DNA from: Utricularia gibba
Lineage: Eukaryota; Streptophyta; Magnoliopsida; Lamiales; Lentibulariaceae
DNA: 64,000 nucleotides
Reading direction: 5' to 3'
NCBI GenBank assembly: GCA_002189035.1
Contig: CM007989.1
Coordinates: 2,604,001 to 2,668,000 of the forward strand
In this document: positions 218-61,623 of the stretch, one piece after another
Position numbering within the stretch: the first letter of the stretch is position 1
Layout of the letters: every line of letters begins with the position of its first letter
The notes under the pieces: generated by a model
What the model saw: the letters and a program-made list of their open reading frames with translations, nothing else
What the model was told of the DNA's origin: nothing
Database searches by the model: none
Program-made: the position numbers and the translations under genes

Positions 218-3200
218 ATGGCTGCCACTTCTGAACTCCTAGCGGCTCAGTTGTTGAATGTATGTCGGGTTCATTTTTTGGATACAGCACCATCCATGAA
301 GTGGATCCCTATAGAATTTTGTGTGTTTTCGTGCAGGGTTCTTGCAGGCGGAAGCTGGTTTTGCCGAGGTATTCGTTGAAGCAGAACTGCAGTCCCGTAC
401 TGTATCGAAAATCTTCTTCATCATTCGTTTTTCGCGGGAATGTGAAGATTAAAGCAACTGTCTACAAGGATGAGAGCAGAGTCGTCAGCGTTGTGCCAGA
501 ATTGGAGGGGAGAGAATTAGAAAAAGTTCTACATTTATATCGTATTCCATTTTTACAGAAGAGTGCCGAGGAAGAGCTTCTTAAGCTTATTCAGACAAAG
601 GTATCAAATCAAATTACGGGTTTGCAAACCGAGCAGTGTTTCAACGTTGGGTTGTTTGGAGACATCTCGGCCGAGAAGTTTTCAGTACTGAAGTGGCTTC
701 TGGGGGAAACTTATGAGCCTGATAATCTTAGTTCTGGAAGCTTTTTTGATGAAGAGATGAAAAGGAGGGAAAATTCTGTTGTTGTAGAAGTTGGGCCTCG
801 ACTGTCTTTTACAACGGCATGGTCTTCCAATGCCGTATCAGTATGCCGAGCATGTGGCCTGACTGAAATAAGCAGGCTTGAGCGATCACGAAGGTACTTG
901 CTGTCCTTAGCACCTGGAAGTGCACCGCTGAGTGGCTCTCAGATTAGGGAGTTTGAGGCTTTAGTACATGACAGGATGACAGAGTGCATTTATCATGAAA
1001 AGCTCTCATCTTTTCAGACGGATGTGATCCCTGAGGAAATTATTTACATACCAGTCATGGAGAAGGGCCGAAAAGCACTGGAGGAAATAAATGAAAAAAT
1101 GGGATTAGCTTTTGATGAGCAAGATTTAGACTATTACACCAAACTGTTCATGGAGGATATCCAGCGTGATCCTACAAATGTTGAGTTATTCGACATTGCA
1201 CAGTCCAACAGTGAACACAGCAGGCATTGGTTTTTTACCGGGAAGATTATTATAGATGGCCAGCCAGTGGATACGACCCTCATGCAAATCGTCAAGAGCA
1301 CCTTGATGGCGAATCCGAACAATTCAGTTATAGGATTCAAGGATAATTCCAGTGCCATTAAGGGATTTCCTGTTAATCAGTTGCGGCCGATCCACCCTGG
1401 TTCCACCTCTCGTTTGGATATGATTGCTCGTGATCTTGATATCCTTTTTACTGCTGAGACTCATAACTTTCCTTGTGCAGTGGCACCGTACCCTGGTGCT
1501 GAGACAGGGGCAGGAGGTAGAATCCGAGACACACATGCAACTGGTAGAGGCTCATATGTTGTAGCATCTACTGCTGGATACTGTGTAGGGAATCTTAACA
1601 TTGATGGTTCATATGCTCCATGGGAGGATCCAACTTTCACATATCCTGTAAACTTGGCTTCTCCGCTTCAAATTCTTATTGATGCTAGCAATGGTGCATC
1701 AGACTACGGCAACAAATTTGGGGAGCCACTAATTCAGGGATATACAAGAACATTTGGGATGAGGCTCCCAAGTGGGGAGAGGCGGGAGTGGTTGAAACCA
1801 ATCATGTTCAGTGGAGGTATTGGCCAGATCGATCACAACCATATAGTGAAGGGAGAGCCTGAAATTGGGATGTTTGTTGTGAAGATTGGAGGGCCAGCTT
1901 ACCGTATCGGAATGGGAGGTGGTGCTGCATCCAGCATGGTAAGTGGTCAAAATGATGCAGACCTGGATTTCAATGCTGTGCAGCGTGGAGATGCAGAGAT
2001 GGCACAGAAGTTATATCGTGTTGTTCGTGCGTGTATTGAAATGGGAGAAAGCAACCCTATCATCAGCATTCATGACCAAGGTGCTGGTGGAAATTGTAAT
2101 GTTGTCAAAGAAATTATTTATCCACAAGGCGCTGTTATTGACATCAGGGCAGTTATACTTGGTGATTATACAATGTCAGTATTGGAAATATGGGGAGCTG
2201 AATACCAGGAACAAGATGCAATTTTAGTGAAACCAGAAAGTCGTGATACTCTGCAGTCAATATGTGAAAGAGAGAGAGTCTCAATGGCTGTCATCGGCAC
2301 TATTAATGGAGGAGGGAGGATTGTTCTTGTAGACAGTGAGGCTACAGAAAGATTGAGCTCAAATGGTCTACCTCCTCCACCACCTGCTGTAAATCTTGAG
2401 CTTGAAAAGGTTCTCGGTGACATGCCGCAAAAGAAGTTTGAATTCCACCGTGCTGTTAATGTGACAGAGCCCCTTGATATAGCTCCTGGTGTTACTGTTA
2501 TGGATTCTTTGAAAAGGGTTTTGAGACTTCCTTCTGTTGGTTCTAAGAGGTTTTTGACGACCAAGGTTGATAGGTGTGTCACAGGCCTAGTTGCACAGCA
2601 GCAAACTGTGGGTCCTCTTCAAATTACCCTTGCTGATGTTGCAGTAATTGCTCAGAGTTATACTGGAATCACCGGCGGCGCTTGTTCTATTGGAGAACAA
2701 CCAATAAAAGGTCTTTTGGATCCAAAAGCTATGGCAAGATTAGCTGTAGGTGAAGCTCTGACTAATCTTGTATGGGCTAGAGTTACTTCTTTGTCTGATG
2801 TTAAAGCGAGTGGCAATTGGATGTATGCAGCCAAACTAAATGGTGAGGGAGCAGCCATGTACGATGCTGCAACAGCCCTTTCAGAAGCCATGATTGAACT
2901 TGGAATTGCAATTGATGGGGAAAGGACAGTCTTTCTATGGCAGCTCATTCATCTGGGGAAGTTGTCAAGGCCCCTGGGAATCTGGTAATCAGTACTTATG
3001 TCACTTGTCCTGACATAACCAAAACCGTGACACCTGATTTGAAACTTGGTGATGATGGAGTTCTCCTTCACATTGATTTATCCAAAGGGAAGCGACGCCT
3101 TGGTGGATCTGCCCTTGCCCAAGTATTTGGCCAAGTTGGTGATGAGTGTCCTGATCTTGATGATGTTGGTTATCTTAAAAAAACTTTCAATGCTGTTCAA

Positions 3201-4508
3201 AGTTTAATTGAGGAAGGCTTGATCTCCGCCGGGCATGACATCAGTGATGGAGGCTTGGTTGTATGTGTGCTTGAGATGGCATTTGCTGGGAATTGCGGAA
3301 TTAACCTGAATCTGATCTCCCCAGATGGTTGTAGTGAGTTTCAAACACTGTTTGCTGAGGAACTTGGTCTTGTCCTTGAGGTCAGCAAAAAGAATTTGGA
3401 TGTATTGCTTGAGAAGCTCGTAGACGCTGGAATACATGCGGAGCAGATTGGTGAAGTTTGCAGCTCACAGGTTGTTGAACTGAAGGTTGATGGTATCTCT
3501 CACCTTACAGCAAAAACATCTCTCCTCAGGGATTTGTGGGAAGAAACAAGCTTTGAACTGGAAAAATTCCAAAGGCTCTCAGCTTGCGTGGAGCTGGAGA
3601 AGGAAGGTTTGAGAAGTCGAACAGAGCCATTATGGAAATTATCGTTCACTCCTTCATGTACAGATGATAAGTACATGACTGGTACAAAACCGAGAGTTGC
3701 CATCATTCGTGAAGAAGGCAGCAATGGTGACAGGGAAATGGCTGCGGCTTTCTATGCTGCAGGCTTTGAACCATGGGATGTCACCATGTCTGATCTCTTA
3801 AACGGTGTAGTCTTACTGAGTAAGTTTCATGGTATTGCCTTTGTTGGAGGATTCAGCTATGCAGATGTGCTTGACTCAGCCAAAGGTTGGGCTGCATCAA
3901 TAAGATTCAACAAGCCTCTGGTCAACCAATTTCAAGAGTTCTATGAGCGGCAAGATACATTCAGTTTGGGGGTTTGCAATGGCTGCCAACTCATGGCTCT
4001 TTTAGGATGGATTCCAGGTCCCATGGTTGGAGGTGCTCTTGGTCCATCTGGGGATCCATCTCAGCCCAGATTCATACACAACGAATCAGGGCGATTCGAG
4101 TGCCGTTTCACTAGTGTGAAAATCGAAAATTCACCAGCTGTGATGTTCAAGGGAATGGAAGGGAGTACATTAGGTGTGTGGGCAGCTCATGGTGAGGGAA
4201 GAGCTTATTTCCCTGATGATGACATCCTTGCAACTGTACTGCAGTCGAATTTAGCCCCAGTAAAGTACTGTGATGATTCTGGTAATCCCACAGAAGTCTA
4301 TCCATTTAATCCCAATGGTTCTCCTCTTGGTGTCGCTGCTATATGTTCTCCTGATGGAAGGCATCTCGCCATGATGCCTCATCCTGAACGCTGCTTCCTG
4401 ATGTGGCAGTATCCCTGGTATCCCAAACACTGGAACCTAGAGAAGAAGGACCCCAGCCCCTGGTTACGCATGTTCCAAAATGCTCGGGAGTGGTGTTCAT
4501 CACAGTGA
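218..4508 (+). CDS. Phosphoribosylformylglycinamidine synthase (FGAM synthase), organelle-targeted, with one frameshift
   Basis: Large single-chain FGAM synthase of de novo purine synthesis. It converts FGAR, glutamine and ATP to FGAM, in plastids and mitochondria in plants. Exons are 218..259 and 337..4508; the 77-base intron has a GTATGT donor and a TGCAG acceptor. This gives a start reading MAATSELLAAQLLN followed by GSCRRKL, as in other plant homologues. An ATG at 262 lies inside that intron and is not the start. The basic N-terminus suits a transit peptide. AIRS-like synthetase halves are followed by a C-terminal glutaminase domain with nucleophile motif GVCNGCQ (Cys about residue 1228) and the MMPHPERCF His-Glu motif. 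The length would be 1404 residues, normal for the family. The frame is broken at a G run, 2917-2920, where one G is missing; everything after continues in the next frame to the TGA at 4506-4508. Either a consensus error or a null allele. Confidence 0.93.
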
Positions 4509-5155
4509 CCCTGATCTTCCTTTCTTCCTCCTTCCATATCAGTGATCAGACTTTTAAAGCTCAGCTGTTCACCCTTCTGCAGATGGTTTCCCTAGTGCGA
4601 GTTTGCTGTTTCATCTGCTGTCATTACCTTCTTGTTTTTTGTCATAACAGCGATCGTAGACAAGCCCAATAACAGAATTAGTAGCTTCGATGCTACCCTG
4701 GTGGAAAAAAGGTCTTTTCCATCAAGTTGCTAATGAGGATGCCTTCAATGCACTAATTCAAAATGATACGACTAAATTGGCATCAAATCTAGTTATGCAT
4801 AAAGGCGATGCTGGAGGCATGCCACCGAACTTTTTTGTTTTTTGAGTTGTAGTTACAAACTGTGTTTTTTGAGTTTGGGATGATCGACTGAACACTGTTT
4901 ACTCAATGAACACAAATTTCTAGCCTACAACAAGAAAATCGTCTTTGGGGCTGCGCAGACTCATCCAACTATCATACATATTAGCAACCATATATGATGG
5001 ATACTATCGCTTACCTGCCCCTATGCATACACCTAAAAAGACCCTCATGTACAATAATCAGCTGATAGAATGTAATTAATGCCTTACAACTGATGATGCA
5101 TCTTATTCTTGTGTTTGAGGAGGGAAGCATGGCACAGGTTTGGCGGCTGGTGACT
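4509..5155. other. Intergenic: 3' ends of FGAM synthase (+) and the BED gene (-)
   Basis: These 647 bases separate two convergent genes. The first part is probably the 3' untranslated region of the purine gene and the last part that of the BED-finger gene. No supportable coding sequence or repeat was seen. Confidence 0.5.
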
Positions 5156-7770
5156 CTATTGAGTGTCTGTGTACTCCCCGCCAGGTTGCTCTCCACCTTC
5201 TTTGATCCCGTCGAATATTTCATTATCATCAAACCCTATAAAGCAGGGAAGAGCCTTAAATGACATTGGAATGCTAAGCACGAATACCTGTATGGAGCAC
5301 AGAAGAATTGCTGAGGTTGATTACCTGCTCCTAAGTCTTCAGTATAGTCACATGCATCCAGACCCGACTGCATAGCTTCAGCATATGGTGGATCAATTTT
5401 CATCCATTCAGAAGGAGAGAGGCTTTCTATGCATACTCCGTTATCAACCACCCAATCTGCAACATCACTGTGTTCTGAAAAAATGGGATCCACAATTTCC
5501 ACTTCCTTGTTTGCTGAAACCCTGTGAGGCAGAAGAAATGTAAAGCTTGTTTTACTTCAGAGATTCAGTCTATGAAAAAGGAGAAGATTTCACACTTACA
5601 TTTGCTTCATCTGCATGTTGTGGCGAACATAGGCAATGTCATCAAGCCTTTGGCGCTGGAAGACGTTTTTTCTCCCGGATGTATTTTTGACAGGAATTTT
5701 ATCCAGCTTATGCTGTAACAAGCTGCAAGTTTGACTAAGAATTCGGATGGCCAGACGAGCCAAGTTGGGGCAAGCCCCACCATATGCAAGCCACCAGTCA
5801 ACTGAAAGAATCAAATTTTGAAAAACAGTGAGCTGATTACAGCTTCATTGCATTTGAAAAAAATATACAAACTGGACCAAGACATCAACTCAATGATTAT
5901 CATGTTTTAAGTGGAAGGAAGCGACATTCAAAGCATAAGGCTGCAGAAAATTCATTTTAAAAGTTATGTCAAAAAGGAACTCACTAGGAGGCAGAGTATC
6001 TCGAGCTCTGATAGCCATTTTCCGCCCAAAATCTCCCGAGCAGCCATGGTAAGATGCAGTTTCTTTCATAAGTTTATCTTGGATCTTAGGGTCAGGGACC
6101 AATTTCTCTATGCAATCATATACCAACGATCGTGTGTACAGATGAGCATCTCCTTCAAGGCTGTAAAAGAATTTGGGATTCAAGTAGAATCCAGCAGCAT
6201 GAAGAGGATTTCTCTTAAGCTGTTCCCACCTACGATCTATGATATCCCAATAGGCTAAATATTCCTTAGTAATAAGTTCTTTCTTAATAGCTTCCTTGGC
6301 TCGATATAACCCTGCATAAACAAACCCCATGGCAGGCTTCCTTTCACTACCAACTATTTTCAACAAACGCAGTAGAGGAGATGTTAAATTTGTTACTGAG
6401 GTACATGCAGACCAGAAAGATTGGCTAGTGATACAATCTAATAACGCAAACCCTTCTGCTTTCTTCGAGTACGGACTTTCCATCCACTCCTCTGATGTAA
6501 TCATCAACTGCAGTTTATGCCTAAGATTTAACATTCTTCTCAAAATAATGAAATCAGTAGATGACGGAGTAATTCCCCTATCAGGTAAATCAACACCAAG
6601 GGTGTGTTTCCTAAACATGTTCAAGATACCACTGTTTGAATAGATGCATCTTGAGATTGATTTCGCCTGGTCAAGTATCACCTTCACCACCGGAAGCTCT
6701 CGCATGTCTTGAAGCATCAAATCAATGCAATGACTAGCACAAGGACTCCAAAATATAGATGGATAAGTATCAGCAAGTTTTTTCCCAGCAATGGAATATC
6801 GATCACCACCTCTGGTTATAACTTGAAGAACATTCTTTAGCCCAACCTGCTCCACTGTTTCCTTAAGCAATTCATATAGCTCATCCGTGGAAACTGTTCC
6901 AACTGATATATTAGCCGACCTAAAAAATATTGTGCCTTCTGAGCAATAGACAAAAAAGTTGACAACACTTACATTATCTCCAGAATTGCGCTCATCTACC
7001 AACACCGTGCAACCAGTTCTTTCCCAAACTCCTTTAAATTGATCAACATCATTTCTAGATTCATGAACAATATTCTTCAAAACCCAACTACTAAGATCAT
7101 GGTACGAAGGAACAACAGCATCAGTTCCACTAGAAGCAATTGCATCAACCATTGGCTGAAAATAAGGAGAATTTACAGCTTCCGCAGGCAATCCAACATC
7201 AATGAAAAACCGACCGACTGCCATATGAACTGAATCACTGATCATGTTCGAGTTTGGATCCAACGTAGACAAGGGTGCAGCATCAGATGCAACTACACCA
7301 ATAGCTTTCCTAACTCTCGCTTTCTTCTTTCTGTAGCCCGTTTTAAACGTAGACTCATCTTCTCTATCAGCATTGGCATCAACATCATGTTCAACCCTTT
7401 CTGGTAGAGGAAGCAACTCTTCCTCGTTACAGATATTGTTTATTCTTTCAATAGCATTTGCACCAGCGTTACCATAGCTAGTCATCTCGCCAGAAGATTT
7501 TTGCTTTCTCCTCTTTCTTACAGAAACCCCATTTAAACTCTCCAGCATTTGCATCCTCACGTCAGATTGAACTCTCAAACAAGTGGCTGCATTCCCTTTT
7601 TGGCCCGCAAGATGTTCTTTAATCCTATGAATCCCACCGCCCTTGAATATCTTCCCACAGTACTTACATTTGAGCTGAACCCGATCCCCATTTTTAAACA
7701 TATCGCAATGTTGCCATGCAGGATCATGCTTATGTGAAGTCAAGGGCACAGGCTCCATATTAGAATCCAT
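5156..7770 (-). CDS. hAT transposase-derived BED zinc-finger protein with DUF659 (domesticated)
   Basis: Four exons on the minus strand: 7770..5985, 5801..5600, 5521..5325 and 5235..5156, giving 754 residues. Junctions are GTGAGT/TTTCAG, GTAAGT/CACAG and GTAATC/TATAG, and every phase closes. A BED-type C2H2 finger lies near residues 18-60 (CKYCGKIF, then HRIKEHLAG). A basic patch follows (KRRKQK and KKKARVRK, possible nuclear signals), then a DUF659 transposase core (CASHCIDLMLQD) and a C-terminal hAT dimerisation region across exons 2 and 3 (DWWLAYGGACPNLARLA, SEHSDVADW). The product resembles plant 'hAT transposon superfamily' proteins such as Arabidopsis At3g22220/At4g15020. I infer a domesticated DNA-binding protein because the frame is intact, there are conserved-looking introns, and I see no terminal inverted repeats. 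Its cellular role is not known to me. Confidence 0.82.
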
Positions 7771-8585
7771 ATATTCTCCACCTTACCCTTCAAAAAAAAC
7801 ACGAAACAGATACATTATTACATCCTTCACCTTGAGCAAAACAGTGTCTTTAGGAAAAAACTTCCACATGAAGACCCAGAACACGATAATTGAAGTAACA
7901 CATAGAAGAACAAACTTCCTCAATTCCAGGAATGCCGAAAATTGTTCTTTCAGCAGCCCACATATTGAAACACCGCACAGAGTATTCTTCCTCAAGCAAA
8001 CTCTAAATTCGAAGAAATTGAACATGGCTTTCAACAATTATACAAACAGTCTTTCTCTAGCATCCAATGAATTAAATACATCAATCTTATAGAAAAAGCA
8101 ATTCGATTCGATACCGAAACAAATTCTCGCCCGGTACTCGAGTTTTTTTTCCCTCCGGCCGAAAAGTCGAGGGCGAGCCGGATAAACCGGTCAGCGAGCG
8201 GCCAAGACGAAGGACAGAAACGAAAAGTTGTACCCCTAGTCCGTACGAGTTCTTTTACCCCAGGCCCCCGAACCAACACGGCCAAGGGCGGAAATTAAAA
8301 TATATTTTTCTTTTTTATTTTATTTTTTAAAAAGAGGAAACCGAGTTCCCTTGACACGTATGCTCAGTCGGACACGTCTAGACTATTTAACTAATTTCTC
8401 ATCCGCGGCAAATTCACAGAAGCAAAGTTTACAATTGAATACCCCCTTCCCTGAATATTACAGTTCATACCCCCGAGTTCCCGTGGCGGAGAAGATTCCC
8501 CGAAGGTTCGCCAGCGCGTTTCCAAATCTCAACCACAAGGCTCCCGCCGGAGGTGCGTTTTCTAATCGTCGATTGGATCGGGTGG
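7771..8585. promoter_or_regulatory. Divergent promoter region between the BED gene and ELC
   Basis: This 815-base spacer separates divergent start codons at 7770 (-) and 8586 (+). It includes a GC-rich block near 8140-8290, an A/T-rich block near 8295-8335 and the probable ELC leader, from about 8400. The open frame at 8351-8884 overlaps ELC in another frame and has no family resemblance. Core promoter elements could not be assigned with confidence. Confidence 0.4.
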
Positions 8586-9794
8586 ATGGCGCAGTATACG
8601 CAGCAATTTCTCAGCAGCGTTCTATCGCAGCGGGGACCGGCGGCGTTGCCGTACGCGGAGGAGATGAAGTGGCACATCCGCCAACACTTGTTGCATCTCA
8701 CAGAAACCTATCCTTCTCTGCAGCCGAAAACGGCGGTATTTACGCACAACGACGGCCGCACCGTGAATCTTTTGCAGGCGGACGGTACCGTTCCGATGCC
8801 TTACCAAGGCGTTACCTACAACATTCCGGTTATTATCTGGCTGATGGAATCGTATCCGACTCACGCGCCGCTTGTTTTCGTTAACCCTACCCGCGACATG
8901 GTCATCAAGCGCCCCCATCCCTTCGTTTCACCAAACGGCGTGGTATCCATGCCTTACATTCATTCCTGGGTCTTTCCGGCTTCCAATCTTGTTGAATTGG
9001 TTCGGAATTTGAGTGCTTACTTCTCTCGTGATCCGCCCCTGTACTCTCAGCGCAAGTCTTCGAACCCTAACCCAAGTCCCCAAGGACCCCAACCCGTTCC
9101 TAGCCCCAGCCCTAGCCCCCGCCCCAGTTATGGTAGTGTGAATTCTTCAGTGGGATCAGCGGCGCCTCGGCCGGCGATTCCCCTGAACAATCCTACTCCG
9201 CCGCCGCCGTATGGGAGGATGACGGAGGATACTGTTGATGTTTTCAAGAGAAACGCAATAAATAAACTTGTGGAAAGTATGAATGATCATATCAGGGAGT
9301 TAAGAAAAGCAAGGGAGGAAGAAATGGAAGGGCTTTTTGGTGTGCAGGCGATGCTCAGGAGGCGTGAGGAGGAGCTTAGGAAAGGGTTAAAGGAAATGAA
9401 CGATGAAAAGGAAGCTCTGGAGCAGCAGCTTCAAATAATTTTGATGAATAGCGATCTTTTAGAAGGATGGTTAGGGGAGAATGAAGAGACATTGGGGAAC
9501 AGTGATTTAAGTGGAGTTGATGCAGCTGAAGCATTTGAGACTAGTGATGCACTGTCAAAGCAAATGTTGGATTGTACAGCTTCTGATTTCGGTGCTGAAG
9601 ATGCAATATATGCTTTGGATAAAGCTATGCAGGAGGGAGTCATTCCCTTTGATCAGTACATGAGGAATGTGAGGCTTTTGTCACGCGAGCAGTTTTTCCA
9701 TCGTGCCACAGCTTCCAAAGTGAGAGCAGTTCAGATGCAAGCACATGTTGCAAATATGGCTGCTCGAGCGACATCCCAGCAGTACACGTTCTGA
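8586..9794 (+). CDS. ELC: ESCRT-I subunit VPS23/TSG101 homologue, ELC-like
   Basis: Single-exon gene of 402 residues. The product is the plant TSG101/VPS23 (ELCH) subunit of ESCRT-I, which binds ubiquitinated cargo on endosomes for sorting into multivesicular bodies; loss of Arabidopsis ELC also affects cytokinesis. An N-terminal UEV domain spans about residues 15-145 ([35 protein letters not shown]). A Pro/Ser-rich linker of about 70 residues follows, with [10 protein letters not shown]. Next come a coiled coil ([13 protein letters not shown]... REEELRKGL) and a C-terminal steadiness box ([20 protein letters not shown]). The start at 8586 ([11 protein letters not shown]) was preferred to the in-frame ATG at 8553, because the UEV domain follows at the usual distance and the extra residues match no homologue I recall. 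The intronless structure agrees with Arabidopsis ELC. Confidence 0.93.
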
Positions 9795-14225: not shown

Positions 14226-14604
14226 CTTTCAAACCATTACAAAGTTGGCCATTTCTAGTTGAACAGGCGCTTTATTTGACATTCACCCCTTAGTGTAAGA
14301 TGGTTGTGGCATTAAACATTATCCTTGCCTAAGTCTTCCCTTCTTGTCTCCGAGTTTGGCTCCTGCTGCTTTTGCTTCTTCCCTCATGAAATAAGCTATC
14401 CATCTTCGAGTTAATACATCGAATCTCATGGATGCGCCATGTTGTGAAACAATTCAGACTTTGATCCTTGCGGAACCACTCAAAAAAGAAAGTGAAACTG
14501 AGGGCATACACCAAGTTTACATATGGTTAACACATCCAGCATATGATGCTCATTGCCTATCTCTGAAATTATGCACATATAGGCGAGTTTGATGCTACTC
14601 GTAC

Positions 14605-28718: not shown

Positions 28719-30047
28719 ATGAAGGCACTAATTCTTGTTGGAGGGTTTGGGACCAGACTCAGGCCTTTGACATTAAGTGTACCAAAGCCGCTTGTTGATT
28801 TTGCTAACAAGCCCATGATTTTGCACCAAGTACGTCGTTTCATCTCTTGTTTTGCATGCGAAAGATCTATCAGCTACGATTCTGATCGTGTTATTTGACA
28901 TGAATCAGATCGAAGCTCTCAAAGCTGCCGGGGTAACTGAAGTTGTTCTTGCTATCAACTATCGACCTGAGGTGAATGAATTACACAGATTGACTTAAAA
29001 ATACACGGATCTGCTGTTTTCTTTACCAATATGTAACTTCTTTCAGGTTATGATGAACTTTCTCAAAGACTTCGAGACAAAGATTGGTATAAAGATCTCT
29101 TGTTCACAAGAGACTGAGCCTCTTGGGACAGCAGGGCCTCTTGCTTTAGCAAGGGACAAGCTGGTTGACAGCTCTATGGAGCCATTTTTCGTACTGAACA
29201 GCGATGTTATCAGCGAATACCCTCTGAAGGAAATGATTGAATTTCATAAGGCGCATGGAGGTGAAGCTTCTATCATGGTGACTAAGGTATGCAAAACACG
29301 TGCAGATACATGGTTTACTGTTTAATAATTATGATGCAGAGAGGCAGGCTGAAAGCTTAAACATTACCGCTCTTAGGTGGATGAGCCTTCAAAGTATGGG
29401 GTTGTTGTTATGGAAGAGGGCACTGGACTGGTTGAAAGGTTCGTTGAGAAGCCCAAGATATTTGTTGGTAACAAGATCAATGCCGGGATTTACCTGTTGA
29501 ATCCGTCCGTCCTTGATCGAATTGAGTTGCGTCCAACATCAATTGAGAAGGAAGTGTTCCCCAAAATTGCTGCAGAGAAACAACTCTTCGCCATGGTGTT
29601 GCCTGGTTTTTGGATGGATATTGGGCAACCAAAAGACTACATCACTGGTTTGAGGCTTTATTTGGATTCCCTTAGGAAAAAAGCATCCCCAAGCTGGCTT
29701 TTGGAGCTCACATACTAGGAAACGTTTTGGTTGATGAGACTGCAACAATTGGTGAAGGGTGCTTGATCGGCCCTGATGTTGCCATTGGACCAGGTTGTAT
29801 CATCGAGGGCGGTGTGAGACTGTCACGCTGCACCATTATGCGTGCAGCCCGGATCAAAAAACACTCCTGTGTTTCAAGTAGCATCGTCGGCTGGCATTCA
29901 ACTGTCGGGCAATGGGCTCGCGTCGAGAACATGACAATACTTGGAGAAGATGTTCATGTTGGTGATGAAATATATACCAATGGAGGCGTGGTCTTACCTC
30001 ACAAAGAGATCAAGACAAACATCGTGAAGCCAGAGATAGTCATGTGA
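28719..30047 (+). CDS. GDP-mannose pyrophosphorylase (mannose-1-phosphate guanylyltransferase), with one frameshift
   Basis: Four exons: 28719..28829, 28909..28971, 29047..29286 and 29377..30047. The enzyme (VTC1/CYT1 in Arabidopsis) makes GDP-mannose from mannose-1-phosphate and GTP in the cytosol, for ascorbate, wall polysaccharides, N-glycans and GPI anchors. The start [20 protein letters not shown] holds the nucleotide-binding signature. [52 protein letters not shown] and [12 protein letters not shown] follow. A left-handed beta-helix C-terminus comes next ([39 protein letters not shown]) and ends KPEIVM. With one base restored the length is 361, exactly the plant norm. As written, the frame breaks after KKASP at 29687-29692, where one C or A is missing, and the sugar-nucleotide beta-helix part continues in another frame. 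A consensus error is more likely than loss of an essential gene. Confidence 0.93.
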
Positions 30048-42078: not shown

Positions 42079-45000
42079 CTAAAAATTTTCCTTGTGAAAT
42101 TGAAATCGTGTAGATGAGTTCATGCTGAACTCTTGGCACAGAGACTTCAAAGATTTTGTTAGCATAGGACTCCCACAGTAGAACACACCTGCAGAGAAGA
42201 ACCCACTAAGATGGATTAAAACCCAACTTTCCTGATATTCTGAAAGGAAGGGAGGACTACCTATTCGGCTAGACGGATGAGTAACTGATAAGTCATCCAA
42301 AACTTTCCTCCAGTTGGGCCTCGCGAAGTGGGTTCGAATCTGTTTCAGTTTGTCAGAATGAAAAACCTTGTTGATGATGAGAATTTTCAAGAAAATTCAG
42401 CTTACTCTGGTTTCTGAAACGACATCAATGCCGTTCTTCGCATGTTGCAGGGATTGAACCATGGCGATCAGCGCTGATCGAGCATCACCTTCCGCATACA
42501 TGCTTGTTAGGTAGTTATGCATTTCTATCACTTGCTGCATAAACCACAGAAATAACCATGTAAACATTTGTCATCTTATTTTTTTTGTTGCTGAAAGCTG
42601 TGGTGCAACGTTTACGTTATGATCATACTCGGCGATATCGTCCATTACACCTTTGAACCATTCGAAGGAATCTTGTTCCCTAGTCACCCAGTAGAAATAT
42701 GCTCTGTCTGGACATTTCTTGTCTCCCCATGAATCGTCTGCAGTAGACTGTGGTAAATATCAATCATCATCTCTGTTTCTATCTGTCTTTTTTTCATGCT
42801 TTAAACGGATTTTGCATTGTCCCAGAGATTTACTCACAGACAGGGATTCATTGTTCACAATGTCCTTTATGATGCTGATAAATGGTGTAGCTCCGATTCC
42901 CAGCCCGATCAGCAGCAAAATATCATATTTCTTGTAGTTTTGTGCCGGTGCTCCATATGGTCCCTTGATCATAATTCTAGGTAGCCTGCTTCAAAGGTGA
43001 CGAGAATACATAAAAAGCATGGTCTATTTAGTCTCATGGGGAAGTAAACATACTGTATATGGTTTTCTGAATAGGCTTTGGTCTCCATTCTCACTAAACT
43101 CCCCATTCTTGGCTTTATTGTTGGAGCTTCACATGCCTGTTTGATGCATACAGTTGGAATTATCAGCACCTTTGTTCTCTTTGTTCGTTTAGTGAATGAA
43201 ACCAAACCTTGGCGAAATGATTCCTGAGCGCTGTTGTCCAATCCCCTAAAGTTCGAATATGGACACTCAAGAATTCGTCATCAGGAGCTGAGGTGATCGA
43301 AAACGGGTGCCTGTGAGGTGAATTCAACACTACGTGTCATGCAGTAGGAATGTGGTTTTGGGGGAAGAAGAGGTGCAGTTACCACTCAAATGCTGATATA
43401 TCAGGGCATTTAACAAAGAGGTACATTCCACTCTTGTACTTGAACTCTGGAGGTTTGCTCATATACAATGCCAAAACATTTCCTGTGTAGGTTACAGCCT
43501 GCATAAACAGGACAAATGAGGAGAAAAGAAACCCCAGATGGGCTCAACAGACAGCAAGCATACGGAATGCATGTAAGTGACCTTGATGATATCTACTGTG
43601 TGGTTGTGATCATATAGAGTGTGGATCCTTTCAATGGTGTAGATCAGCATTGGGACTGCAACATACATCCATGTCTAGCAAATATGTATATTTCTTTAGT
43701 CGTTTTACAGAACAGATGTTGTGACAAAGCAGTTAACTCACCGTTTTCTTGTACCATTGTCTGGTGAGGAATAAGAAGTATCCATGTATGATGAAAAGGA
43801 TGTAGACGAAGACGAGCAAATGGTGCGCATACCAAAAGGCATTAAACCCCGCCAAATGGTGCAGAGGCCATGGTAACTTAACAACATTCCTCCGGAATGA
43901 GTGTGTAGCTAATGTGAATGAAAATGTGATGAGGATGATCATGAGAGTTCCTGTGATTCCAGGTATACTTCTCACCAAATCCATGTAAGAAGGTTGATGA
44001 TGATGAAATGCTTCCCGAGAATTGGCTCAAATGTATCATTTGGACATGAGGCGATTCGTATGAGATCACAACTCAAGTGCATCATGGTGTGGATGACAAC
44101 TCCTGTAAGAACACCAGCAGCTATGAGTTTGTGGAAGTTGATGTTATCATCAAATGGAATAATTGTTCCAGAAATGTGTCTCTGAGCTTTGTGAGGCTTC
44201 TTCTACAGACAGGAAGCAGAATGAGAGCCATATTGAACTTTGTTGTCTCTGCTGCACCTTTGGCAAAGCACAAACAGTACCCCATGATCTGAAATGCGGC
44301 CCGGTGTCTATACTGATAGAATTTCCACGCAAAGAGTGAAAGATTTATACTGATCCACAATGTTACCAGCCAAATCCTCTTCCAATTATCGAAGAATTTA
44401 TCTCTGGAGATCGACAGGCACTTGCTGACTGTTGTTCTGTACTCTTTGGGAATCATTGTTAGAGCTAAAGTTCTAGCTTTCTCGACAGATTTTTCGCATC
44501 CATCCACCGAAACCATCCCTCTTAAAAGTGTCTCAAGTTGCCACATCTGTTTCAAGTACAGCAGGATGTAGTGGGAGGACTTGATAGAAGTTACTGATGA
44601 AGAAATGAAAAGAGGAACCTCTATGTATCCTTTGTGGTCAGGATCCAGCTCTTCCATGATTAGTGAAGCATATGTTGCAGCATGTTGCTTAAATTTGGAC
44701 AGTTTGTTTGCCGAAGCACTTAGAACTAGAACCTTGAACATGGCAGAGAATGCAGATATTCAGGCAAGTTGAATCTGAAACAACTGCTTTTGTTCACTCT
44801 CACCTCTCTGACCTCTTCCTCTGATAACCTTCCATCTCCATTCTTGTCACACCTGCAGAAAATCCAGTTCATCATCTATCAGCAAACGGTTTCTACAATC
44901 CAAGAAGCGGATTGCTTACATGTCGAAGAATATCTGAAGCCTCATATCAAGGTCCTGGCTTGTCATATCTTCCCAGAACTCCCTCAACTGATGTATGTTA

Positions 45001-49000: not shown

Positions 49001-51293
49001 TAAAAGGTTTATTAAAACATTCTACCTTGTCCCTGGATTCAAAGTCGAGTTCCATGCGCTCTATCTTTTCTGTCATTGCCTATAAAATGAAAAGACAAAG
49101 CATGTAAAAAGAACGAAAGCCTCGCACTAATTTCATAAACTTCATAGTATAACCACACCTTTTTTTCTGCCTCTTCTTGGAGAAAACGATCTCTTGGTAT
49201 GTATATTCCATTCTTCTCTCTAGCAGCATACACCTCTAAAGAAATACGTGTTCAGCATTCAATAACCCCGCAGAAGGATATTCTGCTAATGAATGCATTT
49301 AAAATAAATTATGCAAAAAAACACTCTTTTTTACCTTGCTTTAGGCGATCAATTTCAGAGTAAAGATCCTTGATGAGCGCAGATTTCATCATTTTCTGAT
49401 TGATCTATGATCATACGATTTGCTCAGTAACCTTATAAACAGGTCAACGAAAATTATATCAGAGAAGCAATTCTAACAATCTAACCTCAGGTTTGTTCTT
49501 TATGTTTTTGGCACGATGAGCATAGTCAAGCGTACTCAGAGTTTCTTCCAGAGAAAGGATAGAAGGGGATATTGTGGCAATTATGCATGTCTTCGTTTTT
49601 CCTCCAAGGGAATCTCTTAGTAGCCTTGTTATCTTGCTATCCCTGAGATAAACCACATGTTAACCATACGACGATTCTTGACCATAGTACAAAAGATGAT
49701 TTAAATGATATAAACCTGTAAGGCACGTGGCCAGAATGCTCAACCAAAGCATTTATCACTCTTCCGAGAGTTAGCAAGCTCTTATTGATTTCACCTGCTT
49801 CCCTTGCTCTGCCCTGCATAAGTGAAAGGAGCTTGTAGTGTTTCTATCACAATCTGAATAGAGAATCAGGTCATAAAATGCCAATCCTAATTTCATATAA
49901 CCCTGTATCAGTTTCATAGGTACTTTTTAACACCTCTTTCAGTAAAATAGCTGCAGTTGCCCATGGCTAATGTCATTCTATAATCTTACCTCTCTAGCAC
50001 CAGACCGTGAAATGTTCTCAGAGCCCGCTAGGTCAACAAGATTCAGCTTCCCACATTTGATCATTTCTTCTCCTTCTGGTGTGCACTCTTTAATGTGAAT
50101 GGTGATTGAAAAAATAGAGTGAGAACGGCTACTCTGTTTGTTTAGAAGAGTTTCAGCTGTTCTTCTTTTGGCAGAACCTTTTTCTAGGATCTTATATATT
50201 TCATTAGCAGTGGTTACAATCTCTTCTTCCAGACCCCTAACAAAAACTCCACCTTTTCCATCCTCCATGAGCGCTATTGGCTTTTTGGTCTTATCATCGA
50301 CGAACTTTGAACATTCTTCTGGTGCCAAAAGATCAGTTATTTCCTCATTATACAGCTCTATAAATGTAACCTTCATGCTATACTCCGCATGCTGGGCCTC
50401 CAAAATGTCAAAAATTTGTTTAACGGCTCTTGGAATGACGCCTGCATCACTTGGGAATTCGCCATTCTTCACAAGAAAATGTCAAATCATCAAGAGGAAT
50501 AACGACCAAAAAAAAGGGGAAATTTGCAATCAGTAGAAAATAAACCTTCTTCCTTGCCCCGCCTTCCATGGTGTACGTTTTCCCAGTTCCTGTTTGCCCA
50601 TAAGCAAATATCGTGCAGTTGTAGCCCTCGAGAACTTCAAACACTATTGGCCAAACTGCTTGGTCATATACATCCTTTTGCTGGGATGCTGGACCAAAAA
50701 CCTACAGGCGAGAAATAATCATAACATGAACGTAATCAAGGAGTAAAACTGCACTGCGCCATACTTTACACCACAAACTTCGAATGATAACAAACACTTC
50801 TGCCAACAACAAGCCACGATACTGCATTCAACCTATTCTATAACCAAGTTTCATCGGTTCTAGAATTATGGCTAAAAGGCTAAACAGTATAGCAAGGAAA
50901 TGGGTACCTTGTCAAAAACAAAAGTCCTATCGATCTGCTTGTTTGCAATATTTTGAACCGCACAAACTTCTCTTCGGTTCTCATTGCAGGAAATCACCAC
51001 TGGAGTGTTCAGCCTCCGCTCATCATCACTCAACGGTCTGAAAATTCAACATACCCATAAAACTCACTTCCCAAACAAAATAAAAAAACCTTGAGAGGAT
51101 AAGAAAATGGCTGCTTAACCTGCAACGAAGAATGACCTGGACATTGACTCCTTTATCCTTATCATGTTTACCACTAAAGGCCCCTCCCCCGATCGCAGAT
51201 CTCGCTCACCCTTATCAGTCGATCGAGGCGTCTGCGATGGTGAAATCGGCACCATCCCCCACCGCATCTCCTCTGAGCAGCAGCACCCTCCAT
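46014..51293 (-). CDS. Kinesin-5 motor (KIN-5C type), two frameshifts in exon 1
   Basis: Plus-end-directed homotetrameric kinesin that cross-links and slides spindle and phragmoplast microtubules. Twenty-two minus-strand exons: 51293..51120, 51037..50908, 50701..50546, 50466..49990, 49813..49716, 49642..49486, 49404..49335, 49235..49159, 49079..49026, 48934..48854, 48763..48652, 48472..48386, 48297..48122, 48055..47894, 47828..47721, 47611..47453, 47382..47299, 47103..46898, 46820..46719, 46632..46523, 46459..46308, 46232..46014. With two bases restored it has 1050 residues, normal for KIN-5C. Motor motifs: GQTGTGKT (about 137-144), [37 protein letters not shown] long coiled-coil stalk follows, then a BimC-box-like tail ([20 protein letters not shown]) and the terminal VPLTAIN. 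Exon 1 lacks one G at 51256-51260 and one base between 51176 and 51190; its text ([33 protein letters not shown]) matches KIN-5C in three frames. Confidence 0.93.
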
Positions 51294-54200: not shown

Positions 54201-54970
54201 CTAACCATGGCACTTCCTGAAGCAACATATCTGCTTCCTTGCTCGTCTCTGTGGAATCATCACCCCTTTTTCTTGTTTCTGTTACGGAAGGAAACATATG
54301 TGTGGAAAACTTCGATGCCGACTTCAACGCTTTCGGAGGCTGGAAAAGTTCCAACTTCTGGCAACACTGTTACAGCATTAATGTAGCTGATTGGCCAGGA
54401 TTCTCATGTAAGTTACTGACTGATCAAGCATTCTGCTTTCGCTCCATTGTCAGAGTCTTCCAGCTCCACTGCTTCGTTCGCTTTTTCATGCTTCATCAGC
54501 AAGCCATTGATTTTAGGGCAGATAACCTCGATCGCTGATTCCCTCCACAAAATTCCGCAGCATTTACATGATTTTTTACACACAATCACTCGACCAATTG
54601 GATTGACGCAGTTCTTCATTTCAAAAATATGTCAAGATTCACTTTTTTTTTGTTCAGAATCAGTTATTACAAGTATTAGTACTTTTACCAAGTTTTTTGT
54701 CATGTATTGTTTCATAAATATATTGGATGCAATACTTTTCTAGCAGAATATTATGTTTATTTATTTATCTATAATAGAACATTATGATTATTTATTTATT
54801 ATATATATATTTATAATATTTGTAAAAATTAAAAATAAAAATATGTGGATAAACATAGAAAAAAAATAACCATTTTTTTAATTTATGGAGAGTCATTTAA
54901 AAATGCCTGCCTTTCACGTTCACATTTCAGTTGCACCCAAGAAGCCCGCCCTTGCCACCATTTTCCGGCC
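51294..54970. other. Gene-poor 3.7 kb region between KIN-5C and the tetraspanin gene
   Basis: The first 400 bases are KIN-5C promoter and leader. The interval 52200-53040 is strongly AT-rich. At 53040-53820 composition is more balanced, with an unrecognised plus-strand frame (53302-53796, 164 codons) and overlapping minus-strand frames. A possible gene remnant at 54169-54619 is listed separately. From 54640 to 54900 the sequence is AT-rich again, then gives way to the tetraspanin leader. No transposon termini were recognised by eye. Confidence 0.4.
54169..54619 (-). other. Possible coding remnant or unrecognised gene, minus strand
   Basis: Two open segments lie close together on the minus strand. 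The upstream one (54619-54413) encodes a Cys-containing stretch (KSCKCCGILW, then LLMKHEKANEAVELEDSD). The downstream one (54354-54169) encodes LELFQPPKALKSASKF and ends PWLAAIGAAGNVS with a stop. A GTAACT donor and a TGCCAG acceptor lie between them, but that junction does not keep both frames. I do not recognise the family. It could be a decayed gene, an untranslated region, or a gene with another single-base sequence error. Confidence 0.2.
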
Positions 54971-56137
54971 ATGAGAACCGCCAACCACGTTACAGGCTTT
55001 CTCAATTTCCTCAGCTTCCTTCTCTCCATACCCGTGATCGGCGGCGCGATCTGGCTGAGCAGCCGCGCCGCGAATACTGATTGCATGAAGTTTCTCCAGT
55101 GGCCCCTAATCGTTATCGGCGCCAGCCTCATGCTGGTCTCCCTTGCCGGCTTCGCGGGTGCATGCTACCGCAACACTGTTCTCATGTACTTCTACCTCTG
55201 GGCCATGTTTCTCATCATCGCAGCGCTCATCGGCCTCACCATCTTCGCCTTCGCCGCCATAGGAAAAGGCTCCGGCCACCCGGTCCTCGACCGCGTCTAC
55301 CTCGAGTATCGACTTCATGACTTCTCCGGCTGGCTCGCTAGCCGCGTCGCGGATCAGAATTATTGGGCACAAATTGGCTCCTGCATCAGGGATTCCGGCG
55401 TCTGTCCTAAGCTCGCCAGGAGCCACGAGACGGCAGAGATGTTTTACCTCAAGAAGCTCTCTCCCGTTGAGGTAATCACACTCCCGTTTTGCATCATACT
55501 AAATTTTAAAATTTTTTTAAAACTCAAATTGGTCATGTTAATTTCAACACAATTTATAATGAAAAATTGTATTTTAAAATTTAAAACTCCAAATCATTTA
55601 ATCTCCAACTTTTCTTCTTGAAGAATATTCATGTTTATCCTCTAGAAGAATATTCGGAAAAAAAAATTGCCTTTTTCTTCTTCTTTTGCTATTCCCTTCC
55701 CATTGGCGAATCTTCTCACTTTATGTTGTTCTTATCCAATAGATGTTTTTTTTGTTTATAAAGAATTAATCGTTTTTTAATGTTAATTTATGTACATGCA
55801 GTCGGGATGTTGCAAACCTCCGGCGTCGTGCGGCTACACGTACATAAATGACATCTTTTGGGTCCCCGGAGACGGGTTCCCGGACGGCGATCCGGACTGC
55901 GCACGGTGGAGCAACGACGAGGGACAGCTCTGCTACGGCTGCGACTCGTGCAAAGCGGGAATTGTGGCTGCCGTGAAGTCCAGCTGGACGAAGGTTTCGG
56001 TCGTGAATGTGGTGGTTCTCATCATCTTCGTCTTGCTCTACGTGGTGGCTTACAAGGCGTTCAGGCATAACAAGAAGCTTGACAACGATGAAGCGTACGG
56101 AGAGACCCGGATGCAGAAGGCCCGACCCAGAGGCTAA
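54971..56137 (+). CDS. Tetraspanin, TET3-like
   Basis: Two exons, 54971..55471 and 55802..56137 (GTAATC donor, CATGCAG acceptor), encode 278 residues. Tetraspanins organise plasma-membrane microdomains; TET3 relatives also occur at plasmodesmata and on vesicles. The start MRTANHVTGFLNFLSFLLSIP and the segments GAIWLSSRA, FLQWPLIVIGASLM and SLAGFAGACYRN match TET3. Helices lie near residues 8-30, 45-67, 75-98 and 232-256. The large extracellular loop carries the plant signature GCCKPP at about 169-174 plus further cysteines (CSSCKAG-like CDSCKAG). The intron falls just before GCCKPP, as in related genes. The C-terminus ends QKARPRG and is cytosolic. Confidence 0.93.
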
Positions 56138-56496
56138 CGTACGCCGCACGTGTGCAACAAACCGAAGGAAAACTTGTGCTCTAGTGCTCTCTCAATGTAA
56201 TGTCTCTCTGTGTGCATTTTCACTCGTGCATGTATCAACCTTAAATAAAATTATTGAAAATTAAATTAAAATTAAAACTATTTTATTTGAAATAGATATT
56301 AAAGAATAAATTTGTTATGTCACTACTACAAAATATTTGACAACTTTTATTCTACCTAAGAAAGTTGTGAATAGATGAAATATACATTTTTTGTTTTGCA
56401 TTGAAACGGTGTCGTATGCTGGATCATCACTCTCAGTGCTCTTGTTTGTCCGCCTCGGTGAATCTGAACTTGTGGCAGCACTCAGCAGCCGAGGAA
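56138..56496. other. Spacer and leader ahead of the ATP synthase d gene
   Basis: These 359 bases separate two plus-strand genes. They are AT-rich at 56230-56400 and then become the short leader of the ATP synthase subunit gene. In-frame ATGs upstream of 56497 (at 56401) would extend the protein without a family match. Confidence 0.4.
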
Positions 56497-58020
56497 ATGA
56501 GCGGAACGGCGAAGAAGGTCGCGGATGTCGCCTTCAAGGCGGGAAAAAACATCGATTGGGAAGGCATGGCGAAGCTGCTCGTCGCCGATGATGCCCGCCG
56601 TGAATTCGCTACTCTTCGCCGCGCTTTCGATGACGTCAATGCACAGCTTCAGACCAAGTTTAGCCAGGTCATTTGCTGCGGATGATTTTTTCATGCCCCT
56701 TCTCCAATGTCGATTGATTGATCTGTTCTCTGTGTATGGGGAGAGATATGTGGATTTTCATGTTTTTTTCTTAATCAATGATTTTTCATTAAATTGTTTA
56801 CCCTAATCTGTACCTGTGTTGGTGGGCATCCATGGAATCCCTGTACTTATATGAACTTAATAATTGCTTCCTGAATGAGACCCTTATTCTTCATTCTTTT
56901 TGTTGCATAAAAATTGCTGCTTTGACTTTCAGTGGTGTTGATCGCCTACATTGAAGTAGATGCGTATGCTGGTTGCAGGGAAGTATGACTTTGCGTATGT
57001 TCTTCTTTTTCAAAAATTTAGGATGATGGATTAGAAATTGCCAGTCCATGGAATTGTGTAGTCTGGGGTTGCCAGTAATAGGAGGAAGTACACGTTTTCG
57101 TCTTTCTCTCTGGAGTTCAAGGGCTGAGAAAGCTCATATCGTTGGAACTTTTCTGTAAATTGCAGGAGCCAGAGCCTATTGATTGGGAGTATTACCGGAA
57201 AGGAATTGGCTCTCGCCTTGTTGATATGTACAAACAAGCTTATGACGGTAGGCACGGAGTTTTGCTTGCTGGTCACTTACTACTTTATTATTAGTTCCAG
57301 ATGATATCCCTGTATTGTGTGATTCGGAAGACAGGTTCGTGTTTCTATAGGATTTCACAAAATTTACACAGGGATGGCTTTAATAGTACCATCTTAAAAT
57401 TTCCATCTTTCTGATTCGAGATCTGTTTATTCGCCACACAATGGATTACGTTTGTAATTATCCCTGCCTATTGTTCTAAGCTTGTTTTGCGTCTGATTTT
57501 GAGCTTTTATTCCCAGAAATTAAAATCCCGCAGTATGTTGACACTGTGACTCCCCAATACAAGCCCAAGTTCGAGTCCCTGGTAAGATAATCAGCTGTTT
57601 CCCATGTAGAATGTTTTTTTATCTTGATGTTGTTTGTCAATGGAACTTATCCACTTTTTGTCAATTTTGGTTGATGCAATCACACTATGTGGAATATTAG
57701 CATTTTTGTCTTTTTCTGTGGATTTCAGTTGGTAGAACTAAAGGAGGCAGAAGAGCAGTCTCTGAAAGAGTCTGAAAGGCTAGAAAAGGAAATTGCAGAC
57801 GTTCAAGAGTTGAAGGCGCGACTTTTTTGAGCTTGCTCTAATATTCTTTCTCAAGCGTCATCCCATATCTAAAAAATGTTTTCTGTGCCTCCTCGATGCT
57901 TTTTGTTTGCTGCAACAGAAGAAGCTTAGTACGATGACGGCTGATGAATACTTTGAGAAGTATCCTGAGCTGAAAAAGAAGTTTGATGACGAAATTCGCA
58001 ATGACCAGTGGGGCTACTGA
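56497..58020 (+). CDS. ATP synthase subunit d, mitochondrial
   Basis: Five exons: 56497..56667, 57166..57247, 57517..57581, 57729..57815 and 57919..58020, giving 168 residues, the same length as the Arabidopsis protein. Subunit d is part of the peripheral stalk of mitochondrial F1Fo-ATP synthase. Key text is MSGTAKKVADVAFKAGKNIDW, LRRAFDDVNAQL, PIDWEYYRKGIG, DTVTPQYKPKFESL, the charged helix LKEAEEQSLKESERLEKEI and the end DDEIRNDQWGY. Intron 4 (57816-57918) joins QELK to KKLSTM and starts with GCGCGA rather than GT. The only nearby GT donor (57801, GTTCAA) would delete five conserved residues in frame. The start at 56497 was preferred since homologues begin MSG. Confidence 0.92.
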
Positions 58021-58784
58021 ACTTCCCTGTTTGCTTCCCCCTACCATTTTTGGGCAGCTTTCTGAAGGTGAATGCTCAGCTGCAGCGTGTAATAAAGGGA
58101 AGACAAAACTCTGATCAGGGAAACCTTACTTCCATGCGCTGTTTTTTGAGTTGTTTTTCAGTAGTATAAAAACGACAGTAGATTCCTTCCAATTGCTACT
58201 TCTATGGAAAATATCAACTTTATACGAAGGTCAGGTATTTGTGCATATTTACAGTAAGGTCCCCTATTTACAAAATTTACCGGGTGACCTATATAAACCC
58301 GATCACGTCTCATGGTTCATTCTTTGCATGCAGATCTAGATCACGTCTCATAGTTTCACGTAGAGCTCTAGGGATTTTATTTATGTGTTCTGTGGGGTTT
58401 TCTCTCGAGATTTAGGGTTCTCGGAAAGATTAGTTTCATCTATGTATTCTGTTATTTCAGTTTCTTTTTCCTTTCGTTTCGGCAGACGCAAGCATTTCGT
58501 TTTCACTCTCTTGTTTTTCCGTGTGTGTTTGTCACTTTTTGCCTCGTTATGTTGTTTTTTTCGTTCTTGGCGATTCTGGCCTTTTATTGATGTGCCTTGT
58601 TTTTGAATGAACCGCTGATGATCGAAATGAACGAAATGCTTTTATTTCACAAATGTTGCATGTGTATGTTGCTGCTGATTTTTTTTGGCGCTGTGCGAAG
58701 AATGTTGTGCGTTTTAATTGTTCGTCCTATTTCATCTGCAGGAACGGTGCCATGGTTGCGATCGATCTCCATTCATCCGAAAAA

Positions 58785-59015
58785 AAGAAGAAAAAAAGGC
58801 CAAAAGAAGAAAAAGAAAATTATTGCCAGCCTACCCCGCGATCGATATCAACCGCCATCTCTCTCTCACTCAAATCGCTCTAGTGATTTATTACCACCAT
58901 TGACATTCGATCGCTGTTAAAGAAAAGAAATGCCATAAAAAAAAGAAAAAGGCCAGAAAAAAAGAAGAAGAAAAAAAGGCCGGAAAGAAAAAAAAAAAAA
59001 AAGGCCAGAAAAGAG
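58785..59015. repeat. Purine-rich repeat with (A)nGGCC spacing
   Basis: Runs of A and AAG are interrupted by GGCC at 58798-58801, 58951-58954, 58978-58981 and 59003-59006, each preceded by five or more A residues and followed by C/G/A-GAAA-like text. The last three are 27 and 25 bases apart. This is a low-complexity, slippage-prone tract rather than a known element. Confidence 0.7.
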
Positions 59016-59783
59016 GGGGTTTTATCGCAGTACATATCACTCCTGTGATTATTCTGTATCTGCAAGGCTCGGCATCCATCCTCTATCATCCTTTATCTTT
59101 CGCAATCATTGGCTGTCTTGCAATTTAGGTAATGTAGATGTAAGTTATTGGTTTAGGCCCTGGAACTGCATGTGGAGATAATTTATTTTTGTAGTTTCAT
59201 TAGTTTGGTTATCAGTTTAGAAATTGCTCATTAGTTATTAATGTAGACCGTTGCATGTAGGGCCAAGTTATTGTTTTAGGTGCGTTGCAGGGGAGGGTAG
59301 GATACACCGTTTTTAACTCCGCCTGTGCCAAATCGCACTGCCAGTCCCCAGCCCGGAGAAAGGAGGAGGGAAGACTTGATATCTAGTGTTTAGGGAGTTG
59401 CATTTCTTCTCTTTCAGTTGATAACTTCACACTTGTTGTGATGCTAATAGGTGTACCTGGTGTCGTCAGTAGTCTGTCTATATTTGATTTTTCGTTGTGT
59501 GTTGTATTCTAAGATCAATGGAATCTGGTTATTAATTTGCTAGTCATTGGTTTGATGGTGGAGAAGAGATGATCATTTTGGCATTATTGAGAGATCGCCA
59601 TTTTGGTATTATTTAAGTTTGCATTTCAGTATTATTGGATTTTATGGATCTCTAAGGTTAAGCAATTATGAGACTCTGCTGCTTAGGAGGCTGTAAACTG
59701 TGATGTGAAAATTGTGTTTTCCACATGTAATATTAAGCCAATTGTCTGTAGCAGAGATTGCCACCAACAGTTGAGGCATGACT

Positions 59784-59804
59784 GCCACGTCGAGCACCAT
59801 GCAT
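59784..59804 (+). promoter_or_regulatory. ABRE-like and RY (seed) motifs of the vicilin-like gene
   Basis: GCCACGTC (ACGT core) at 59784-59791 is followed by the RY element CATGCAT at 59798-59804, about 60-80 bases ahead of the start codon. Paired ABRE and RY elements are the classic ABI3/FUS3/LEC2 and bZIP binding arrangement in seed storage protein promoters. The match is by sequence and position only. Confidence 0.6.
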
Positions 59805-59865
59805 ATACTCTCTACTTAAGCACCTGAGTCCACCTCTCCATGTCTCATCTTGTTACACTCCATCG

Positions 59866-61623
59866 ATGGCATCAAGATCGAAGCTTTTCATTCTGGCCGT
59901 GGTGGTTCTGGCCACCGCCGTCAGGTGCTACGAGGGTGAGGAGCGGCGTTGGGAACCTGAGGAGGAGAAGGAGCAGCAGCCGGAATTTCTACTGCCGGAA
60001 GCAAAGGAGGTGGTGAGAACAGAAGCTGGGGTAGTGAAGGTGGTGAGGGGCATTGCTGGAAGATATGTGAGGAATCCATTGCATATTGGGTTTATCACAA
60101 TGGAACCCAGCAGTTTTTTCATCCTCAGTATCTTGATTCTAGTCTCATTCTCTTCATCAGGAGAGGTATATTTACAGTTGAGGCCCTTGCAGTATCATAT
60201 AGCATGCACATCGTAGATTCAGCTGAAGCCATTAAATTCATTGCACTGAGATTGAAAGCAACTGCTTTGAATGCAGGGGAGGCAAGAGTTGGACATATAC
60301 ACAAGGATGAGCTTGTGGAGACATCTCTGAAGATTGGAGATGTTTATAGGATAGAAGCCGGCTCAACTTTCTACCTGATCAACACAGCAGAGGGGCAGCG
60401 ACTCCATGTCATCTGCGGCATTGCAAAGTCAGAGGCCATCGGTTGGAAACCATTTCAGGTGGTTTTCATCCCACAAAGTCTGTTAACTTTGGTTAGTTTC
60501 TGACATGTAATTGAGCTGCTTCCATCGTTAGTCTTTCTACGTTGCTGGAGGAAGTGATCCTGCCTCTGTGTTTTCCGGGTTCGATCCTATGACGCTGTCG
60601 ACTGCTTTCAATGTAAGCAAGCCATCACCTTATGAACACAGCCAGCTTGTGTTGGTCCAAGTTTCATGAGCAAGGCTATTGTGACGTTGGAATTACTTTC
60701 TTGGCAGGTTTCTGAAGCAGAAATGGTGGGCATAATAAGAAGCCAACAGCGTGGGCCGATCATTTACTACTCGGATTCGCATCCACCGAGTGTCTGGTCT
60801 AAGTTTTTGGAGATGGATAAGCATCGAAAGCTGGCAAGCTTAAAGGGGATGATGGCCTCTACGAATGAAGACACCGACTTTGAAGAGGAGGAGGAGCAAT
60901 CAGCTTGGTCCATCAGCAACCTCTTGCCGTACTTCCTTGGAGTAGGAAGTAAGAGAGGTGATAAGCGGACCGGATCAAAGAAGGGTGATGCTTATAACCT
61001 CTATGATCACACCCCGGGCTTCAGAAACAAATACGGATGGAGCATTGCGGTGTATCAGTCCGATTACAGGCCTCTTCGGCACGATGATATCAGCGTCTAC
61101 CTCGTCAACCTTACGGCGGTAAAAGGACAACTCTTTTATGCCTTATGGATTGGTGCTTGGTTAGTAGTTGTACGTTTCTGGATCAATGCAGGGGGCGATG
61201 ATGGCGCCGCACATCAACCGTAAAGCGCACGAGTATGGTGTGGTGATCGGAGGATCCGGCCGCGTGCAGATTGTATATCCCAACGGAACCTTAGCCATGG
61301 ATGAGCAAGTGTCTGAGGGGGATGTCTTCTGGGTGCCCCGGTTCTTCCCCTTCTGCCAGATCGCGTCAAGGACCGGTCCGTTCGAGTTTTTCGGGTTCAG
61401 CACATCGGCTAAGAACAACAGGCCACAGTTCCTTGCCGGGTCGGGATCGCTGCTGCAAGCCCTGAGAGGGCCTGAACTGGCGGCTGCATTTGGAGTGAGC
61501 GAGCAGAAGTTGAAGGAGATCATCGATGCCCAGCGGGAGTCGACCATCCTGCCATCAGCAACCGTTGCTCCGCCGGATGTTGTTATGCAGGGAGCCAAGG
61601 AAAAGGGTTTGGGAAGGGACTAG
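59866..61623 (+). CDS. Vicilin-like 7S seed storage protein (bicupin), with one frameshift
   Basis: Five exons: 59866..60165, 60277..60458, 60532..60612, 60708..61118 and 61192..61623. With one base restored the length is 468 residues. The product is a secretory-pathway 7S globulin deposited in protein storage vacuoles. The signal peptide is residues 1 to about 21 (FILAVVVLATAV), then an acidic stretch EEEKEQQPEF. Cupin 1 covers about 45-200 (HIGFITMEPSSFF, RVGHIHKDEL, GDVYRIEAGSTFYLINT). A linker with an acidic EEEEEQ tract follows. Cupin 2 covers about 290-440 (MMAPHINRKAHEYGVVIGGSGRVQIVYPNG, split by HIN and HEY motifs; EGDVFWVPRFFPF). It resembles At2g28490-type vicilin-like proteins. The frame breaks at 60123-60124, where one C of the Ile-Pro-Gln-Tyr codons is missing; the first exon then reads out of frame until its donor. 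Either consensus error or a null allele. Confidence 0.9.

Follow-up and report, generated by a model that had tools for sequence, protein, structure and literature searches.

One-Base Losses in Five Genes of a Utricularia gibba Contig Are Very Probably Consensus Errors of the Long-Read Assembly

INTRODUCTION

Polishing with Quiver does not remove all errors from assemblies of PacBio CLR reads. A bacterial genome of about 3.2 Mb still contained 561 single-base homopolymer deletions after three rounds of Quiver (PMC4888979), and 40,784 homopolymer indels of 1–2 bp remained after Quiver in the 390 Mb genome of rice (PMC5418594). The consequences of such errors for annotation have also been described. 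Long-read indel errors are reported to fragment genes, such that intact genes are annotated as split or truncated (Watson and Warr 2019, cited in PMC8306402; Kastor, PMC12007338). Frameshifted genes have a second well-known origin in the pseudogenes that arise from duplicate genes after whole-genome duplication, where broken copies are found beside intact homeologues.

The published PacBio assembly of U. gibba was produced with HGAP at 88x and has a contig N50 of 3.4 Mb (PMC5793159); it contains Unitig_8 of 6.8 Mb (PMC8333044). Here, we describe seven frame breaks in five genes of one contig. They resemble the errors of the Quiver-polished assemblies in that one base is lost in or beside a run, and that such losses recur assembly-wide at about one per several kb. 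The evidence is of a different kind, since the published errors were found by short-read alignment and the present ones by reading frames, paralogues and redundant contigs. The annotation problem is the same as in the fragmentation reports, which concern other genomes and other platforms.

RESULTS AND DISCUSSION

The window, meaning the whole stretch of 64,000 nucleotides that was analysed (positions 2,604,001 to 2,668,000 of contig CM007989.1, assembly GCA_002189035.1), lies on the contig that we call C1. The affected genes and the sites of loss are as follows.

262..4505, + strand: FGAM synthase (PurL/PFAS type), a single long exon that reads in two frames, with Pfam FGAR-AT and GATase_5
2914..2925, + strand: loss in FGAM synthase, GATGGGGAAAGG; G4 present, G5 needed
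28719..30047, + strand: GMPP (GDP-mannose pyrophosphorylase, VTC1/CYT1 type), best PDB matches 8yre/7x8j over 361 aa
29687..29690, + strand: loss in GMPP; C4 here, C5 in the homeologue on contig C321
43742..44546, − strand: RBOH (NADPH oxidase), 805-b exon that lacks one base at each of two sites
44156..44169, − strand: RBOH loss 1, in or beside an AA/TT run, ...LEQ/IIPFDDN...
43999..44020, − strand: RBOH loss 2, in a T3 or G3 run, exact base uncertain, ...GKHF/HHHQPS...
51120..51293, − strand: first coding exon of KIN-5C (kinesin-5), 174 b, with two one-base losses in G5 runs
51252..51265, − strand: loss in KIN-5C; G5 present, G6 needed
51179..51194, − strand: loss in KIN-5C, G5 run one base short (GGGGGAGGGG)
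59866..61620, + strand: vicilin-like 7S globulin, best PDB match 4lej vicilin
60118..60132, + strand: loss in exon 1 of vicilin, ATCCTCAG at 60121–60128; C2 present, C3 needed

A first-pass annotation of this DNA had proposed that seven single-base deletions, and no gains, break these five genes. Reading all frames confirmed every one of them. Compared with the protein family or with paralogues, each site lacks one base (gains, 0/7), the family sequence resumes in the next frame, and the frames are open on both sides. In FGAM synthase the frames 235–2985 and 2916–4505 join as ...IAIDGGKDSLSMAAH..., which matches solved FGAM synthases, and the gene is otherwise open across more than 1,400 codons. 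GMPP in the window reads GCATCCCCAAG at 29683 where the C321 homeologue reads GCATCCCCCAAG; the joined product aligns with solved plant GMPP from end to end. RBOH paralogues spanning each of the two sites call one lost base there, except that for loss 2 one paralogue locus (L003, with its overlap L007) places the change as +2, which is the same frame change. The motor domain of KIN-5C matches kinesin-5, and the losses in the N-terminal part were called from frame continuity and exon phase rather than by comparison with a relative. Restoring the base in vicilin yields FFIPQYLD, in agreement with vicilins.

The restored exon lengths also agree with the splice sites, as had been claimed: 805+2 for RBOH, where the exon is flanked by an AG acceptor and a GT donor, 174+2 for KIN-5C, and 671+1 for exon 4 of GMPP, the 671 including the stop codon. 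The further claim that the losses lie in or beside short runs holds as well. The longest run within 6 b of the seven sites averages 4.4 against an expectation of 2.8 (P about 0.0002), though at three of them, namely the vicilin site and the two in RBOH, the run that contains the lost base is just two or three bases long. Frame breaks are absent from the genes for a phototropin-like kinase, a CrRLK1L kinase, VPS23, EF1-alpha, a thaumatin, a tetraspanin and a fizzy-related protein in the same window, with exon joins in intron-rich genes judged by eye. We saw no stops or larger indels in FGAM synthase, GMPP or the RBOH exon; KIN-5C and vicilin were judged by eye.

Are these genes broken in the plant? 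The strongest alternative to an assembly error, which we nonetheless consider very unlikely, is that some or all of the breaks are real and recent pseudogenising frameshifts, tolerated owing to copies left by whole-genome duplication. A search of the assembly (516 contigs, 100,091,633 bases) lends this reading some plausibility. GMPP has a homeologue at C321:862004–863321, whose exon 4 is 91% identical, and a third, more divergent copy lies on C142, so that the plant could tolerate losing one of them. Paralogues of RBOH and kinesin-5 are present too, and for any of the four genes with paralogues (GMPP, RBOH, KIN-5C and vicilin) the loss of one copy is not impossible. FGAM synthase, on the other hand, is single copy, as its only matches in the assembly are its own two halves in the window. 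A functional replacement elsewhere thus exists for GMPP and is absent for FGAM synthase, with vicilin and KIN-5C partly checked. The first-pass argument that essential single-copy functions would hardly be lost side by side does not hold for GMPP.

The GMPP homeologue makes it possible to compare the two sides of a break. Following the frame across it, exon 4 of the window copy and the C321 copy differ with dS 0.73 and dN 0.03, and omega is 0.034 before the break and 0.049 after it. Relative to the C142 copy, dN is 0.126 for the window gene and 0.138 for the C321 gene. The window gene is evolving no faster than its homeologue, and so shows no sign of decay. In this gene, the one of the five in which selection was tested, strong purifying selection acts on both sides of the break, and the relaxed selection expected of a pseudogene is not observed. 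We rejected pseudogenisation as a general explanation on the basis of this homeologue comparison.

Frame breaks elsewhere in the assembly lead in the same direction. GRAS genes were chosen for this survey because they are mostly single-exon; 43 loci were aligned, allowing for frameshifts, to relatives within the same genome, and removal of three redundant loci left 40 loci and 61 kb. A break was counted as supported if similarity on both sides exceeded a set cut-off. Loci without in-frame stops contain 22 supported breaks, a few of them less sure because the references are distant (L028, L029, L032). Twenty-one are loss-type, and the only gain-type break (L025) mirrors a loss called in its homeologue L026. 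These breaks, too, sit at longer runs (mean longest run 3.8 against 2.8 at random positions, P 0.0002). The four gap-free splits examined in the KCS and UGT families are all loss-type, and each is found within or next to a G run; L082 and several KCS splits resemble introns and were left uncounted. Across the three families, loss-type breaks occur assembly-wide, on many contigs, and are not gene-specific. The seven losses in the window, in about 27 kb of coding sequence by our own estimate, are in line with the GRAS density of 21 in 61 kb.

Four GRAS paralogues (L034, L035, L036 and L083) are all broken in the run-rich DNA of the conserved GGPP motif, and L011, the homeologue of L034, is unbroken there. 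The DNA of this motif in GRAS genes is a hotspot of run-length miscalling.

Real decay does occur in this assembly, as three GRAS loci show (L074, L079 and L081). These loci carry stops and mixed shifts and look unlike the breaks under discussion. The seven sites likewise differ from duplicate-gene pseudogenes in having no stops and no larger indels; only one-base losses are seen, with no second kind of lesion alongside, and the nearly loss-only spectrum is not expected of real indels. For FGAM synthase in particular, a real break would mean that de novo purine synthesis disappeared very recently in a carnivorous plant that takes up breakdown products of nucleic acids from its prey, a scenario to which we attach very little credence.

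Consensus errors are also indicated by loci that the assembly holds twice. Four redundant pairs, C316/C412 (4.1 kb), C377/C321 (2.9 kb), C422/C414-end (1.3 kb) and C422/C416-start (1.0 kb), amount to about 9.3 kb and differ by 3 mismatches versus 24 indels, 18 of them single-base. All losses fall on the small contig or the contig end. Judged by these alignments, such indel-only discordance is the pattern of consensus error and unlike divergence. Coverage is probably lower on small contigs and contig ends than on C1, and hence these show the type of error but not its rate on C1. The redundant pairs are limited to such sequence; the argument for large contigs is carried by the GRAS result.

A diverged repeat, the pair L084/L085, was kept out of this set. 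Between C316:14001–23000 and C412:836300–845500, compared as further redundant sequence, only 2.5 kb of diverged repeat aligns, with 42 mismatches, and this was not counted. Since C316 is not collinear with C412 throughout, it may not be a plain duplicate contig but a piece that was misassembled or duplicated. The end of C414, the start of C416 and C422 have one GRAS locus in common at their ends (L072, L080 and L029), and these three are probably unjoined overlapping or redundant contigs.

The existence of small redundant contigs (C316, C377, C422) could also suggest that the plant is heterozygous, or that haplotypes were mixed, with the shorter runs belonging to one allele and the longer functional allele missing from the assembly. 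We regard this as highly improbable, as the redundant contigs show many indels but hardly any substitutions against the main contig, unlike allelic divergence, and as seven null alleles would be needed within 64 kb. Where the frames overlap at the breaks, the genes might be read through by programmed frameshifting or by means of unannotated micro-introns, but a signal common to the seven sites is not apparent and the GMPP homeologue lies in one frame, which leaves this idea with practically no likelihood.

The difference between C5 and C4 in GMPP, purifying selection across that break, the loss-only GRAS breaks, the indel-only redundant contigs and the published error rates together argue that the seven losses are, with high probability, errors left in the consensus of a long-read (PacBio CLR) assembly, and that the genes would be intact in the plant. 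The first-pass annotation had drawn the same conclusion, and the support for it now comes mainly from this other evidence. Against it, spontaneous frameshift mutations likewise favour runs, and three of the seven lost bases are in very short runs. Consensus calling would have shortened homopolymers, mostly those of G or C, by one base. The reads would carry the longer runs, and the source would be the HGAP/Quiver assembly of U. gibba. The window would not be special, since a gene family sampled assembly-wide suggests roughly one such error in every 3 kb of coding sequence.

The losses themselves are very probably ordinary assembly errors. Their rate is what matters: with a frame break in roughly every 3 kb of coding sequence, a sizeable fraction of the gene models in this assembly would be split or truncated. 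With such an error rate across the assembly, claims of gene loss, truncation or pseudogenisation that are based on it need support from reads or transcripts.

One published claim of this kind is the truncation of U. gibba DCL3. We considered it as a case of the same error and checked it at the fourth Dicer locus (C213:2761967), where this explanation was not supported. Positions 5008–7845 of locus L086 (C213:2755300–2763300) encode a Dicer-like protein that has two RNase III domains and matches PAZ weakly. The locus has no Dicer_dimer match, and the upstream open frames that were tested gave no match to a helicase or Dicer-dimer domain. Upstream, on the opposite strand, are RRM and zinc-knuckle frames of another gene. 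These domain gaps, together with the neighbouring gene, make the DCL3 truncation look real rather than a frame-break artefact, and L086 fits the published truncated DCL3.

The segment C321:862004–876880 is the probable whole-genome-duplication partner of the window from 28 to 61 kb. It retains GMPP and parts near vicilin; close copies of RBOH or KIN-5C were not found in C321:862–877 kb. Window positions 56483–58113, between the tetraspanin and vicilin genes, share 77–88% DNA identity with C321:874704–876270. No gene is assigned to this stretch; either a gene was missed here or the block may be conserved non-coding DNA. Upstream of vicilin, positions 58288–59397 match C1:2559190–2560384, 45 kb outside the window, with 74% identity over 1.1 kb. 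Shorter related pieces are found on C321 and C377, and this sequence is possibly a repeat.
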